This document shows positions 274 to 11,702 of a stretch of DNA of 15,120 nt, piece by piece (within the stretch, counting starts at the first letter, position 1; the number at the start of each line of letters is the position of its first letter). The notes under the pieces are model-generated. The model was not told the origin of the DNA, ran no database searches, and saw nothing but the letters and a program-made list of their open reading frames with translations. Source of the stretch: a bacterium. Its GTDB lineage: Bacteria > JAMOTN01. Where the stretch lies: the NCBI GenBank assembly GCA_027062325.1, contig JAMOTN010000078.1, positions 1 through 15,120 of the forward strand, given 5' to 3'. The position numbers were made by a program, and so were the translations under genes.

Positions 274-1809
274 ATGCAGGATTTGTACAAATTTGAAAAC
301 TACGTTCATCCCGAATTTTACAAGAAATTGCTTGATCTAAAAGAGTTAGGAGAAAATCCTTACGACATTAAAAGTTTTGAAAAAACCGACATAATTCAAA
401 TCCGCCAAGAGGCTGAGGTTGAACTTGGAAAAAGTTACAAAACAGCCGGTAGAGTTAAAGCGATAAGACGTCATGGAAAAGCAATGTTTTTCGACATAGA
501 AGATTCAACCGGAAAAATTCAAATTTATCTCAAGGCAGATGTTGTGGGAAAAGATAAGTACAAATTCATAGCTGACCACATGAAAGTTGGTGATATAGTC
601 GGCGTTGAAGGAGAAACTTTCATAACTAGGACAGGAGAGTTATCAATTCAAACAAAATACATAATGTTTCTATCTAAAGTCTTACGTCCCTTACCAGAAA
701 AGTGGCATGGTCTAAAAGATGCTGAAATCCGCTATCGTCAACGCTATTTAGATCTACTCGTTAACAAAGAGGTGTTCAACAACTTCAAAAAAAGATTTGA
801 AATGCAATGGGAAACTCGTTCTTTTATGGCAGAATGGGGATTTATAGAAGTGGAAACCCCTATACTTCAACCTATTGCTGGAGGAGCAGCCGCAAAACCT
901 TTTGTTACATATCACAACTTTCTGGAACTTGAACTATTCTTAAGAATTGCCCCTGAGCTCTACCTAAAGCGTTTGTTAGTTGGAGGATTCGAAAAAGTTT
1001 TCGAAATGGGAAGAGTTTTTAGAAACGAAAACATTTCAAATAGACACAACCCAGAATTCACAATGCTTGAAGCATATGCTGCATATAAAGATTACACGTA
1101 CATGATGCAACTCACCGAAACCTTAATCGCAACACTTGCTGAAAAAATTCGTGGCAGCTTCAAGATTCCATTTGTAAAAGAGGAAAACGGCAAAAGAATT
1201 GAATATGAAGTGGATTTAACACCTCCTTTCCAGGTAAAAACCTACCTTGAAGTAGCCTCTGAAGCTGCAGGTGAGGAGATTACTGAAGAAACTCCAAATG
1301 ATAAGTTGATAGATATTGCAAAGCAAATGGAAATTGAATTAACAGGAAACGAAAGCTGGGGAGAACTCGTGGAGTTGATTTATTCGGAGGGTGAGAAAGG
1401 AATTACACAACCCACATTCATAATAGACTATCCCATTGATATATCACCTCTGGCAAAACGCAAAACTGAAAAATTAACAGAGCGTTTTGAACTTATAATA
1501 AATGGTTGGGAATTGGCAAATGCATTTTCGGAACTCAACGATCCAGAAGATCAATTTAATCGCTTCATGCAACAGCTAGAGAGAGCAGGTGTAGACAAAG
1601 ATCGTGATTTTCACAGATTTGATGCCGACTACGTGCTAGCACTTTGCTATGCTATGCCACCTGCAGCAGGATTAGGAATAGGAATCGATAGACTTGCTGC
1701 TTTAATAAATGGCCTTAGCTCTATCAAAGAAGTAATTCTCTTCCCAACTATCAAACCTCAAATTAATCTCAAACTCGAAGAGGATAAAGAGGTGGATGCA
1801 GGTGCGTGA
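274..1809 (+). CDS. lysS: Lysyl-tRNA synthetase, class II
   Basis: This 511-residue enzyme charges tRNA-Lys with lysine using ATP in the cytoplasm. An OB-fold anticodon-binding domain covers roughly residues 55-150 (GRVKAIRRHGKAMFFDIED). The class II catalytic core follows, with RIAPELYLKRLLVGGFEKVFE leading into motif 2 (MGRVFRNENISNRHNPEFTM, about 243-262) and motif 3 GLGIGIDRLAAL near 467-478. GWELANAFSELNDPEDQ is the usual LysS-specific segment. Length is normal for bacterial LysRS2. I prefer the ATG at 274: AAAGGAG at 257-263 sits 10 bases upstream, whereas an in-frame GTG at 265 would be only one base from it. It is the first gene of the plus-strand cluster, and its stop lies 4 bases before the next start. 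Confidence 0.97.
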   Translation: MQDLYKFENYVHPEFYKKLLDLKELGENPYDIKSFEKTDIIQIRQEAEVELGKSYKTAGRVKAIRRHGKAMFFDIEDSTGKIQIYLKADVVGKDKYKFIADHMKVGDIVGVEGETFITRTGELSIQTKYIMFLSKVLRPLPEKWHGLKDAEIRYRQRYLDLLVNKEVFNNFKKRFEMQWETRSFMAEWGFIEVETPILQPIAGGAAAKPFVTYHNFLELELFLRIAPELYLKRLLVGGFEKVFEMGRVFRNENISNRHNPEFTMLEAYAAYKDYTYMMQLTETLIATLAEKIRGSFKIPFVKEENGKRIEYEVDLTPPFQVKTYLEVASEAAGEEITEETPNDKLIDIAKQMEIELTGNESWGELVELIYSEGEKGITQPTFIIDYPIDISPLAKRKTEKLTERFELIINGWELANAFSELNDPEDQFNRFMQQLERAGVDKDRDFHRFDADYVLALCYAMPPAAGLGIGIDRLAALINGLSSIKEVILFPTIKPQINLKLEEDKEVDAGA

Positions 1810-1813
1810 TAAG

Positions 1814-3613
1814 ATGGGGAATAATCTAAACAAAACATGTCCAGAATGCGGTTTTTCAAATCCAGCTGAGGCTGTATTTTGTCAAAATTGTGGCAAGAGA
1901 TTAGATGGTTCATGTCCAAATTGCGGTCACTTAAATTCCACAGATGCCAACTTTTGTATTAAATGTGGTACCCGTCTCTCAATGACATCAAAAGGATTCG
2001 TAGTTAGAATTTCCGATTACATTGCACGCATTATTCCTGAAAAAAATAGAATTCTCATGCAGTTTGATACTCCTGCTCCAACAAAGCATACCAAAGGAAC
2101 TCAACTTCAACAACAGCATATACAAATTGACGAGACAATAATTGAAGGTCTTTTTAATAAACTGACAGCTGTCGTCGCCACACAAATTGAAAAACAGCTT
2201 AATGAAATCTTTTCTGAACTTACAAAACAAATCAAAGAAAATGCTGAAAGTTTAAACCAAATCACTAAAAAAATAATTGAGCGAGAAGAAAAACTCCTAA
2301 ATATGGAAGATAAACTCAACAACTTAGCTGCTCAACTCAACCAACTAAAGTCCATCTTACCTCCAGTATCGTCCACAGATGATACAATGCTTGAAAAATC
2401 TGAAAAAAAAGATCAAGAGGAATCCTCAAAAGAGTCTCAAAAAGCAGCAGAGGTAAGTGAGAAAACTTATACACCTGAAAAAACTCTAGAACCATCTTCT
2501 GAACAAACGGATATAAAAGAGGTTTCTATTTCTTCAGAAGACAGCGACGTTATAGAACCTGAATTAGTCAAAGAACAATCTACCACATCCATAGAAGAGG
2601 ATTCTTCAACTGAGGATCCTTGGAAAGACATTTTCATATCAGAACCCTCTGAAACAAAAGAATCACCCAAAACTATGGGAGTAGGAGAAAACACCAAATC
2701 ATATCAAAACAGGTCTCTCGAAAAATCAGTACCTCAAGAAACTTCCCAAGAAATTTCTACTCTTCTCATCACCGTTGACAGCAATGACTGTACCATGAAA
2801 ATAATTGACACCAATGGTGACATAATAAAGTTTGCAGGAAGTCGCGGGGATGGTCCGGGTGAATTTAGAAACCCAAAAAAAGTTGCTGTATATCCAGACT
2901 CAAACTTAGTAGCCGTATCAGATTTTGCTAATAAAAGAGTTCAAATTTTCTCTCTCCCTAATCTTGAATTAATTGGCTCAATAGACAACTTAGAATTTCC
3001 AACAGGATTAGCCTTTTTTGATAAGCAATTATTCGTCATAGAGAGCTGGCTCGGCTCAATCGCTGTATTCGATTTTTCAAGCTCCTCTATTCCAACTTCT
3101 CCAGTTGTAAACCTAGGTGGCAAAGGAATAGAACCTGCTCAATTCGAAACTCCTGAAGATTTGCATATCACCAAAGACGGATCAATAATTATTGCTGACA
3201 GTGGTAATAATAGAGTCCAAAAACTCTCAAAAGATTTTACTCCAATTTGGCTAGTTACATCAGATCAAATTCCCGAAGGTTTTGATCACCCCAAAGGAGT
3301 ATTCGAATACAACGGAGAAGTATTTGTTGTCGATACTGGAAACAGTCGCATTGTCGTTCTGGATTCAAAAGACGGTATGCTGAAAAGAATTATCGGTAAA
3401 TTTGGAAAAGATGAAGGTGGTTTAAATTCTCCATCAGCCGTGTGCGTTGCCAACAATAAAATTTTCGTAGCAGATACATGGAATAACCGCATAACAACGT
3501 TTACAATCGATGGAATTCCTCAGCAGCCAATTGGAGAACTACAAAGCATATTCGAAGGCATAAGTGATGTGGAAGCTGTATCTTCAAATTTGATCTTTAC
3601 GGAGGTGGCGTAA
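1814..3613 (+). CDS. Double zinc-ribbon / coiled-coil / NHL beta-propeller protein of unknown function
   Basis: I recognise the domains but not the gene. From the ATG at 1814 it has 599 residues. Two zinc ribbons come first: C9/C12/C23/C26 and C34/C37/C48/C51, each CPxCG...FCxxCG. A helical, probably coiled-coil segment spans about 105-182. A low-complexity linker rich in Ser, Glu, Thr and Lys covers about 183-315. The C-terminal 280 residues contain five NHL-type units (for example GEFRNPKKVAV, then VSDFANKRVQIFS, ADSGNNRVQKLS, VDTGNSRIVVLD, ADTWNNRITTFT). The terminal strands could close a sixth blade. I see no signal peptide or membrane segment, so it is probably cytoplasmic, with the propeller as a protein or ligand platform. 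The start is supported by AGGTG at 1800-1804; an in-frame ATG at 1796 overlaps lysS and sits one base from its own SD-like sequence. Its stop overlaps the acylphosphatase start (TAATG). Confidence 0.88.
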   Translation: MGNNLNKTCPECGFSNPAEAVFCQNCGKRLDGSCPNCGHLNSTDANFCIKCGTRLSMTSKGFVVRISDYIARIIPEKNRILMQFDTPAPTKHTKGTQLQQQHIQIDETIIEGLFNKLTAVVATQIEKQLNEIFSELTKQIKENAESLNQITKKIIEREEKLLNMEDKLNNLAAQLNQLKSILPPVSSTDDTMLEKSEKKDQEESSKESQKAAEVSEKTYTPEKTLEPSSEQTDIKEVSISSEDSDVIEPELVKEQSTTSIEEDSSTEDPWKDIFISEPSETKESPKTMGVGENTKSYQNRSLEKSVPQETSQEISTLLITVDSNDCTMKIIDTNGDIIKFAGSRGDGPGEFRNPKKVAVYPDSNLVAVSDFANKRVQIFSLPNLELIGSIDNLEFPTGLAFFDKQLFVIESWLGSIAVFDFSSSSIPTSPVVNLGGKGIEPAQFETPEDLHITKDGSIIIADSGNNRVQKLSKDFTPIWLVTSDQIPEGFDHPKGVFEYNGEVFVVDTGNSRIVVLDSKDGMLKRIIGKFGKDEGGLNSPSAVCVANNKIFVADTWNNRITTFTIDGIPQQPIGELQSIFEGISDVEAVSSNLIFTEVA

Positions 3614-7892: not shown

Positions 7893-8999
7893 CTATACTT
7901 CTTTCTCTTCACTACCAAACATCTTACCAGTCTTTGCCCAATGAAGATACGCATATATGAAATCATCTATATCCCCATCCATAACAGCCTCAACATTTCC
8001 AACAGTATATAAAGTCCGGTGATCTTTTACCATTCTGTACGGTTGAAACACGTAAGAGCGAATTTGATGTCCCCAGCCAATCTCTGTCTTTTCTCCTTCA
8101 AGCTTCTTTTTTTCTTCCTCTGCCTTCTTACGGTAATATTCATAAAGACGGGCTTTCAATATCTTCATAGCATTCTTCTTATTCGCAAACTGACTCCTCT
8201 CCTTCTGGCAAGTTACAACAATCCCCGTAGGAATATGGGTAATCCTAACAGCTGTCTCAACCTTATTAACATTTTGACCTCCATGCCCACTTGCTCTAAA
8301 AGTCTCAACCTTCAAATCCTCTTCGCGTATCTCAACATCAACTTCGTCATCCAACTCGGGCATAACATTTACCGAAGCAAAGCTTGTATGACGTCTAGCA
8401 GCAGAATCAAAAGGAGAAATTCTAACCAAACGATGCACTCCTCTTTCACCTTTTAAGTAACCATAAGCATATTCACCCTTAACTAAAAAAGTAACACTCT
8501 TTATTCCAGCAACATCCCCTTCCAACCAATCGAGTATCTCAACAGAAAATCCCTTTCTCTCAGCCCACCTCGTGTACATTCTAAAGAGCATCTGTGCCCA
8601 ATCCTGAGATTCAGTTCCACCTGCTCCAGGATGTATGGAAACTATAGCATTATTTTGATCATACTTGTCATCCAAAAGTAATCTCAATTCAAGATCTCTA
8701 TAAAGTTTCTTCACTTCTTTGAGTAAATCAGTTGCCTCTTTTGCCATTTCTTCATCCTCAAGTGCAAGTTCTGAGGCAACTTTTAAATCCTCAAGAGATG
8801 AAGCCAAGCGCCTATACATTTCATGTACCTCTTTGGCAGCTTTAAATTCTCTTTGAAGACGCGCAGCTTTCTTAGGATTAGACCAAACTGCCGGATCAGA
8901 AAGCCTTTTTTCTAATTCTGCCAAATCTATTCTTTCCACAAATCCCCTTATCCCTTTTACTCCCTTTTCAAGCTCTGCTATTTCAATTGCGTAATCCAT
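7893..8999 (-). CDS. prfB: Peptide chain release factor 2 (RF2), no programmed frameshift
   Basis: RF2 recognises UGA and UAA stop codons and triggers peptide release. From the ATG at 8997-8999 it has 368 residues. The RF2-specific anticodon-like tripeptide SPF is present ([16 protein letters not shown]), as is the catalytic GGQ at about 240-242 in [19 protein letters not shown]. The N-terminal helical domain begins [20 protein letters not shown] and continues straight into [19 protein letters not shown]. The in-frame UGA and the CUUUGA slip site found here in many bacteria are absent, so a single uninterrupted frame encodes it. An upstream in-frame GTG at 9011 is less likely because GAGGTGG (complement of 9003-9009) fits the ATG and overlaps that GTG. 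It follows hpt by 27 bases. Confidence 0.96.
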
Positions 9000-9026
9000 A
9001 GCCCACCTCACCTTTCAAAATCAAAC

Positions 9027-9566
9027 CTAATTCTCAACATACGCTACAAAAGGTAAATTTCTCCATACCTCATCCAAATCCAAACCGTAACCGTAAACAA
9101 ACTTATCTTCAATATCAAAACAACAGAACTTAACATCCACATCGTATTTTAATGAAGCTGGCTTTCTAAGTAACGTAAACACCTCGCATGAAGCGGGCGA
9201 CATTACTTCAAAATAATCCTTCAAAAACTTCACTGTAAGACCTGTATCAACAATATCCTCCACTATTAAGACATGACGATTTTTCATATTCTCATCCACA
9301 CCAAATATGAGATTAACCTCCCCCGTACTCTTTCTCCCAGAGTAACTTTTCAACCTTATAAAATGCATAGTTAACGGCAAATTTAACCTCTTAGCAAGCT
9401 CTGTTGCCACAAAGTAAGCTCCTTTTAGCACCACTACAAAAGCAAGAGGATTATTTTCTGTAACAAGGGTAGAGTAATACTTTTCAACCTCCCCTGCAAC
9501 TTCATCTAAACGTCTCTCAATCTCTTCCTTCGTAAGCAAAATCTTTTTATGCTTCATTTCCTTCAC
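9027..9566 (-). CDS. hpt: Hypoxanthine phosphoribosyltransferase
   Basis: This purine-salvage enzyme transfers the phosphoribosyl group of PRPP to hypoxanthine (often also guanine). About 179 residues show the type I PRTase PRPP loop VLIVEDIVDTGLTVKFL, the early VVLKGAYFVATELAKRL segment, the flexible-loop SYSGRKSTGEV and the C-terminal GYGLDLDEVWRNLPFVAYVE that is typical of bacterial HPRTs. The start is uncertain. In-frame candidates are GTG 9578, TTG 9572, GTG 9566 and ATG 9557. I chose GTG 9566 because AGAGGTG (complement of 9576-9582) is 9 bases upstream; ATG 9557 would give the more usual short N-terminus MKHKKILLTKEEI. The upstream DUF6485-like gene ends at 9581, giving near overlap. 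Confidence 0.94.
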   Translation of the reverse strand: MKEMKHKKILLTKEEIERRLDEVAGEVEKYYSTLVTENNPLAFVVVLKGAYFVATELAKRLNLPLTMHFIRLKSYSGRKSTGEVNLIFGVDENMKNRHVLIVEDIVDTGLTVKFLKDYFEVMSPASCEVFTLLRKPASLKYDVDVKFCCFDIEDKFVYGYGLDLDEVWRNLPFVAYVEN

Positions 9567-9580
9567 TCTCAACTTCACCT

Positions 9581-9799
9581 CTAAAGATTTAATTCAAGCC
9601 CCTCTTCTTCAATCATTCTCTTGAAAGCATCCACACTTCTATCCCACGTTCTCTCCCACTTGTCAGTAAAAAAACACCCCGGGAACTCCCCCATTGAAAG
9701 ATGATAGTGTAAGCATTCACAACACGTTCCTTTTTTAGAACAAGGAGTATAAGAACAATTGCAGTACTTCATATTGTCATCTATATGTTTACATTTCAT
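9581..9799 (-). CDS. Small cysteine-rich protein, DUF6485-like
   Basis: A 72-residue cytoplasmic protein with eight cysteines (3, 13, 15, 20, 26, 27, 29, 42), several histidines (5, 31, 33) and a C-terminal amphipathic helix ([16 protein letters not shown]). The core [17 protein letters not shown] resembles what I recall of DUF6485, a family without an assigned function; the Cys/His spacing suggests a metal site or Fe-S cluster, which is inference. The ATG at 9797-9799 has a strong GAGGAGGG (complement of 9806-9813) 6 bases upstream. It sits 17 bases after a second, smaller protein with the same CCxC-x12-C core and directly before hpt. Confidence 0.82.
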
Positions 9800-9816
9800 A
9801 GCAATCCCTCCTCAAC

Positions 9817-9981
9817 TTATTTAAGCAATCTTTTAGCACAAGGTGGGAGACTTTTTTGATTTTTAAAATGTCTTATACAAAGGCAACACACACCACGATA
9901 GGGAGTTTCATCTTCAGTTGCTGGACACCTCTTCAAATTTTTCTCGTACATGACGCAATCTCTACCGAAAACTTTCGCCAT
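9817..9981 (-). CDS. 54-residue cysteine-rich protein, paralogue-like companion of the DUF6485-like protein
   Basis: This gene is short and easily missed. The ATG at 9979-9981 has AAGGAGGGG 5 bases upstream, one of the best ribosome binding sites in the window, and the frame ends with TAA at 9817-9819. The 54 residues begin MAKVFGRDCVMYEKNLKRCP and carry cysteines at 9, 19, 32, 33, 35 and 48. The core VCCLCIRHFKNQKSLPPC has the same CC-x-C-x12-C spacing as its downstream neighbour ([18 protein letters not shown]). The neighbour's C-terminal helix is missing. It lies 26 bases after the htrA stop and 17 bases before the DUF6485-like start, so it is probably co-transcribed. Function is unknown; metal or Fe-S binding is a guess from the cysteines. 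Confidence 0.78.
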   Translation of the reverse strand: MAKVFGRDCVMYEKNLKRCPATEDETPYRGVCCLCIRHFKNQKSLPPCAKRLLK

Positions 9982-10007
9982 TTTTACCCCTCCTTACTAT
10001 CAGTTTC

Positions 10008-11702
10008 TTACTTCAACTCAATATTTATCTCCACTCCATCACTCTTCTTGAGCAAAATTTTAGCAGGCTTCTTCAAATTCTTCCACATATCAATTGTAGG
10101 CTTTTTCCCATTTATCTTCTCTATAACATCTCCAATTTCAAACACATCATTGTCGCTTGCAACTACTTTAAGTCCATTCTTTTCCGGAATTACAGACACC
10201 TTTAAATCTTTATTGTAATTTGTATACCTCTTTAGAATTTTCCTCACATAATTTTCATCAACAGTCGACATGTTGTATATAAACATACCCGGCGATATGT
10301 TAAACTCCAATTCAAATAACATTCCACTCCTCTCAAATATTATCTTTCCCTTTCCATTCTTTACCACTTTCTTAACATCATTAACCGTAGATGGAACCTT
10401 TCCATTAACTGCAATTATCTTATCTCCAACTTGTAAGCCAATCCTACTTAACGCCGAGTTTACATCCTTTAAAACTACTCCGGGGAATTTATAAGAAGCC
10501 GTCCCTACAACACTACCTACCTGACCAGAGTTTGAAGGCTTACTACCTCCCAATACTCCAAATCTCTTCTTAATCTTGTCTATCAAAGTATGCAAAGGCA
10601 ACTTGCTCCCTACACTCTGAGGAGTATTATCCTCATCTCCAAACTCCGAACCAAGCTTCACATTTGCTGTGTAAAAACGTCCTTCTCTCCAATACCTAAT
10701 TTTTACAACATCTCCCGGCCTATACATTCTTATGACCTTTCTCAAATCAGCAGGTGAAGATATATCCGCATCATCTACCTTTACAATTACATCCCCTTCT
10801 CGCAATCCAGCCTCATCAGCAGGACTTCCTGAAACCACATCTGCAATCACAGCTCCACCCTCTGCAGGATAACCTAACTTTTGAGCAATTCGAGCAGTAA
10901 TTGGATAAGTGTACACCCCAAGGAATGCAAACCGTGCATGCCCATAGTTTAAGAAATCCTCCACAAAACGTTTAGCTACATTTATTGGAATAAGAAAACC
11001 AATTCCATGAGCAGGCGCAAGAATAGCCGTTGCAATTCCAATTACTTTTCCATCCAAATCAACTACTGGTCCACCGCTGTTTCCCACATTTATGGCAGCA
11101 TCTGTCTGGAACAAATCAACCATAACATTTCCCTGAACATTCAACCTTCTTCCTTTTGCACTTATAACTCCAAACGTCACCGTTCTTTCCAAACCAAACG
11201 GATTACCAATTACCAACACAAACTGCCCAACCTCTACATTATCCGAATCTCCAAGCTCTACAACAGGTGGTTCAAAATTTCCAAGATTTTTTAATTTAAG
11301 AAGGGCTATATCGTATTCTTTACTTAAACCTACAACTTCTGCTTCAAAACGATGAAACCTATCAAATGTAGCGTATATCTTATCTGCCCCCTCAACAACA
11401 TGAGCGTTTGTAACAACTAGTCCACTCTTATCTATGACAAATCCACTACCCGTTCCTATCTTTTGTTTATAAACACGAGGTTTCGGATTGAAAAACATAT
11501 CATCATTGAAAAATTGTTCAAACAACTCATCAAGCGATGGATAAGAATATGCATAGCTGTATTTTTCCGTTTCGATCAAAACCACTGCGTCTTTAACTTT
11601 TTTTACAATTTGGGGTAAATCCTTAAGATCAACTGCATAAGCCGAGCAAAAGCTACACACAGCAAGTAGAAATATTATAAACAACTTCCCCCCTCTTAAC
11701 AT
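10008..11702 (-). CDS. HtrA/Do family periplasmic serine protease with two PDZ domains and a possible third
   Basis: An exported trypsin-like protease/chaperone that handles misfolded envelope proteins. A signal peptide covers residues 1-23 (RGGKLFIIFLLAVC, cleavage probable after CSAYA). The protease domain has GTGSGFVID and the triad His101 (VTNAHVVEG), Asp131 (EYDIALLKL) and Ser209 (VGNSGGPVVD). PDZ1 spans about 256-350 (SPADEAGLREGDVIVKVD) and PDZ2 about 375-475 (GLQVGDKIIAVNG). A final segment of about 90 residues contains VFEIGDVIEKINGKKPT, which looks like a degenerate third PDZ. At 564 residues it is longer than typical DegP/DegQ (about 450-480). The ATG at 11702 has GGGAGGC (complement of 11711-11717) upstream. 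The transporter gene ends 28 bases earlier, so the two are likely co-transcribed. Confidence 0.93.
   Translation of the reverse strand: MLRGGKLFIIFLLAVCSFCSAYAVDLKDLPQIVKKVKDAVVLIETEKYSYAYSYPSLDELFEQFFNDDMFFNPKPRVYKQKIGTGSGFVIDKSGLVVTNAHVVEGADKIYATFDRFHRFEAEVVGLSKEYDIALLKLKNLGNFEPPVVELGDSDNVEVGQFVLVIGNPFGLERTVTFGVISAKGRRLNVQGNVMVDLFQTDAAINVGNSGGPVVDLDGKVIGIATAILAPAHGIGFLIPINVAKRFVEDFLNYGHARFAFLGVYTYPITARIAQKLGYPAEGGAVIADVVSGSPADEAGLREGDVIVKVDDADISSPADLRKVIRMYRPGDVVKIRYWREGRFYTANVKLGSEFGDEDNTPQSVGSKLPLHTLIDKIKKRFGVLGGSKPSNSGQVGSVVGTASYKFPGVVLKDVNSALSRIGLQVGDKIIAVNGKVPSTVNDVKKVVKNGKGKIIFERSGMLFELEFNISPGMFIYNMSTVDENYVRKILKRYTNYNKDLKVSVIPEKNGLKVVASDNDVFEIGDVIEKINGKKPTIDMWKNLKKPAKILLKKSDGVEINIELK

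Follow-up and report, generated by a model that had tools for sequence, protein, structure and literature searches.

An ordinary DUF6485 protein and a strongly diverged, tail-less relative encoded side by side in a bacterial gene run

Two very small cysteine-rich proteins encoded next to each other raise the question whether they are related and, if so, whether they share one function, act jointly or have gone separate ways. Such a pair occurs in the window, the whole stretch of 15,120 nucleotides of bacterial DNA that was analysed. An earlier note had placed two adjacent minus-strand genes of 54 and 72 codons between htrA and hpt, and both open reading frames are found there, intact and with ATG starts, at positions 9817 to 9981 and 9581 to 9799, respectively. 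Upstream lies the gene for an HtrA-like trypsin/PDZ serine protease (10008 to 11702); downstream follow an hpt-like phosphoribosyltransferase gene (9027 to 9578), which starts 2 nt beyond the stop of the 72-codon gene, and a prfB-type release factor gene (7893 to 9011), all on the minus strand. The gap between htrA and the 54-codon gene (9982 to 10007, 26 nt) contains the Shine-Dalgarno (SD) site AGGAGG of the latter, and the gap between the two small genes (9800 to 9816, 17 nt) contains the site GAGGAGG of the 72-codon gene, so that the strong SD ascribed to each gene is indeed present as an AGGAGG-type site before the ATG (AGGAGGGGTAAAA-ATG and GAGGAGGGATTGCT-ATG). Since the frames are intact, the SD sites strong and the gaps from htrA to the hpt-like gene only 26, 17 and 2 nt, a single operon fits, and the small genes are likely to be co-expressed within a tightly packed htrA-54-72-hpt-prfB run. 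Codon scores do not discriminate in this case: the 54-codon gene reaches -0.08, as do 10 of 51 spurious ORFs or better, and the real 72-codon gene only -0.12. Elsewhere in the window, positions 1796 to 3613 of the plus strand encode a 605-residue protein that appears unusual in joining N-terminal double zinc ribbons to an NHL-type beta-propeller at the C-terminus.

The core CCxC-x12-C with a proline before its last cysteine, already recognised as common to the two small proteins, is present in both (C26, C27, C29 and C42 in the 72-residue protein; C32, C33, C35 and C48 in the 54-residue protein), the last cysteine being preceded to give Pro-Gly-Cys and Pro-Pro-Cys in the two. The larger protein is readily placed. 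With the Pfam model PF20095 (DUF6485) it scores 38 bits, above the gathering cut-off of 24 bits, and it has the full family set of eight invariant cysteines, an invariant histidine and an E-x-T-[YW]-D-R-S tail, here with tryptophan (E-x-T-W-D-R-S). In 75 aligned family members C3, C13, C15, C20, C26, C27, C29, C42 and H33 (numbering of the 72-residue protein) are invariant, and so are Pro40, Phe44, Glu49 and Arg54. By score, cysteines, histidine and tail alike, it is an ordinary member of DUF6485. The invariance of the cysteines and the histidine is as expected for metal ligands, and it suggests that proteins of this family bind metal. The predicted model is that of a small helical protein (pLDDT 92.8, a high confidence), for which Foldseek matched neither a PDB entry nor a viral structure or model. 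A sequence search of the PDB with the single protein gave nothing significant; a profile gave a weak likeness to the zinc finger of ribosomal protein eL37 alone (at YH...C.FP....TY..S, best E = 0.024). The cysteine pattern of DUF6485 differs from the C-x2-C...C-x2-C zinc ribbon of eL37, and no eL37 chain was found by Foldseek with the predicted helical model. Kinship with this zinc finger was rejected, and the resemblance is most likely due to chance or convergence.

The smaller protein has no match to any Pfam, NCBIfam or PADLOC defence model, does not reach the Pfam gathering cut-off, and is not found in phage records; when PF20095 was searched against the whole genome, the 72-residue protein was the sole match. 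The remark that this gene is easily skipped thus holds for family-based annotation, since neither Pfam nor NCBIfam recognises its product. With a DUF6485 profile made from 28 homologues, both window proteins being left out, it scores 33.8 bits, while 2000 shuffles of its sequence with the cysteines fixed averaged 3.3 bits and reached 21.9 bits at most, which argues for homology to the family. A profile-profile comparison by hhalign assigned a probability of 96%, and a search of the whole genome with the family alignment returned the 54- and 72-residue proteins as its only two matches. Furthermore, the core aligns to the family without gaps over C-x9-C-x12-CC-x-C-x12-C, together with N-L-K, G and L-P positions. 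By these comparisons the 54-residue protein is a real, very diverged relative of DUF6485 that is homologous to its neighbour.

It differs from the Pfam family in falling outside the model, in its tandem placement and in what it lacks. In a 38-row alignment it keeps C9, C19, C32, C33, C35 and C48, that is, six of the eight invariant cysteines, as well as the family Asn, Gly and Pro, while Ala and Thr stand at the second cysteine of the CxC and at the next cysteine. Each protein does possess a histidine near the core, as the earlier note had it, but the two are not equivalent: the column of the invariant histidine (H33 in the 72-residue protein) is occupied by Phe39, and His38 of the smaller protein lies one column earlier. 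The E-x-T-[YW]-D-R-S tail is absent, which leaves the set of cysteines, histidine and tail incomplete, and the 17 nt that follow the gene leave no room for a remnant of it. The predicted model is also weaker (pLDDT 76.8). At 21%, the identity to the 72-residue protein is below that to each of 36 other members (23-42%), and a tree on 42 core columns allows the two to be sisters or not (AU p = 0.44), with an extremely long branch for the smaller protein. Low identity and tree together make a recent tandem copy unlikely as its origin; it may stem from an old duplication or be a relative that was acquired separately. The proposal of a duplication with a common metal function has therefore stood in part: shared ancestry is borne out by profile and hhalign, whereas the lost ligands and tail, the identity and the tree lend no support to a plain duplication in which both copies hold one kind of metal site. 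For an equal, duplicated function, too, these losses and the 21% identity make the case less likely.

One way to account for them is that the 54-codon gene is a decaying duplicate of DUF6485, a pseudogene whose frame is still open by chance. Decay would agree with the disappearance of the tail and of three invariant residues, two cysteines and the histidine, with the very long branch, and with the occurrence of the protein in its source genome only among 386. Yet at 21-42% identity its frame is still open and preceded by a strong SD, and six of eight cysteines persist along with the family Asn, Gly and Pro; it can be reasoned that such drift would be expected to erase most of these features. 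Decay seems unlikely, if by no means negligible; a reduced protein that still functions is the preferred reading.

Core versions without a tail also occur elsewhere. In two other genomes there are core-only proteins of 44-46 residues with all eight cysteines (locus L143 in genome G162, L144 in G183); further searches within the phyla of these two covered 2-3 genomes. They end just past the last core cysteine, as the 54-residue protein does, but differ from it in keeping the histidine besides all eight cysteines and in being single, not tandem. Their existence indicates that a core without a tail is a real form. At this length they could slip past many gene callers. Remoter forms of the cysteine core, CPCTNYECARHGVCCDC and CPCPSDCKRRGDCARC (L145 in G227, L146 in G240), are embedded in longer frames with other tails, which suggests that the core may be a reusable module.

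DUF6485 is present in 122 of the 386 genomes, nearly always in single copy. COX1, the haem-copper oxidase, was found in 9 of these 122 genomes versus 155 of the 264 others (odds ratio 0.056; Fisher p = 5e-24, which is indicative as genomes are not phylogenetically independent), so that 113 of the 122 are devoid of a haem-copper oxidase. DUF6485 is furthermore in none of the 20 listed genomes that lack POR. It is an anaerobe-associated family; its near-confinement to genomes without haem-copper oxidase is new here, and the link with COX1 is the most informative clue to function. Plasmid records contain one canonical member, in a single record annotated 'cytosolic protein'. No paper naming DUF6485 or PF20095 was present in the library searched. 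The source genome, of 1.65 Mb, has no COX1 and three POR-family matches. None of the genomes searched is related to it more closely than at the level of the domain, so that it looks like a deeply isolated lineage.

Could the two small proteins work jointly, either within one heteromeric metal protein or with one of them passing metal to the other? Their genes are adjacent, homologous, of similar size and each preceded by a strong SD, as might be expected of partners. However, in almost every other genome canonical DUF6485 works alone, being single-copy and having no conserved neighbour. Among 135 loci with a family match, two credible members lie side by side in this window only, and no second genome with a tandem arrangement was found; the co-occurrence looked for by profile search did not emerge, and the earlier idea of a working pair gains no comparative support. 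Across 79 loci, no conserved neighbour or operon partner was detected and the surrounding genes are mixed, unrelated housekeeping genes; the commonest neighbour families, HflX GTPase and GlmS, owe their frequency mostly to synteny that a single group of loci has in common. In one genus (G003, locus L157, 4687-5450; also G291) an iorB-like (POR gamma) gene immediately precedes DUF6485 on its upstream side. IorB was rejected as a partner because it is not among the recurring neighbour families of the 79 loci. Joint action of the two proteins appears rather improbable. That the smaller one is an unrelated cysteine-rich protein which converged on CCxC-x12-C is hardly credible: the missing Pfam or NCBIfam match and the mere 21% identity to its neighbour would permit it, but the profile score lies far above the cysteine-fixed shuffles and the ungapped core alignment extends to the N-L-K, G and L-P positions.

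We consider it reasonably probable that the 72-residue protein is a small cytosolic protein of anaerobes with a metal site, and that it is accompanied by an old paralogue with fewer ligands; metal binding, co-expression and specialisation are the parts that we infer. The eight cysteines and the histidine of DUF6485 would serve as ligands of a structural or redox site, probably for one or two tetrahedral zinc ions or an Fe-S cluster, in a protein used by anaerobic bacteria. The 54-residue protein would be an old, fast-evolving paralogue reduced to the cysteine core. With six of the eight cysteines it probably keeps only part of the metal site, and a specialised or accessory relative seems likelier than a redundant copy. 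Both genes would be expressed from the one htrA-54-72-hpt-prfB run. It could further be imagined that the smaller protein founds a functional subfamily with a reduced ligand set, which cooperates with canonical DUF6485 in anaerobe-specific metal handling, and that DUF6485 is a signature protein of certain anaerobic lifestyles with a fold unseen in the PDB; we regard this as doubtful.

Taken for what it is, the finding consists of a known, uncharacterised family and one unusual diverged paralogue. The latter illustrates how a small gene can go unnoticed by family libraries, and it is a natural variant showing which ligands and which tail may be dispensable. DUF6485 itself is spread across many bacterial phyla with eight cysteines and one histidine fixed in the aligned members, and its link to oxidase-free genomes would make it a testable, anaerobe-linked candidate metal protein.
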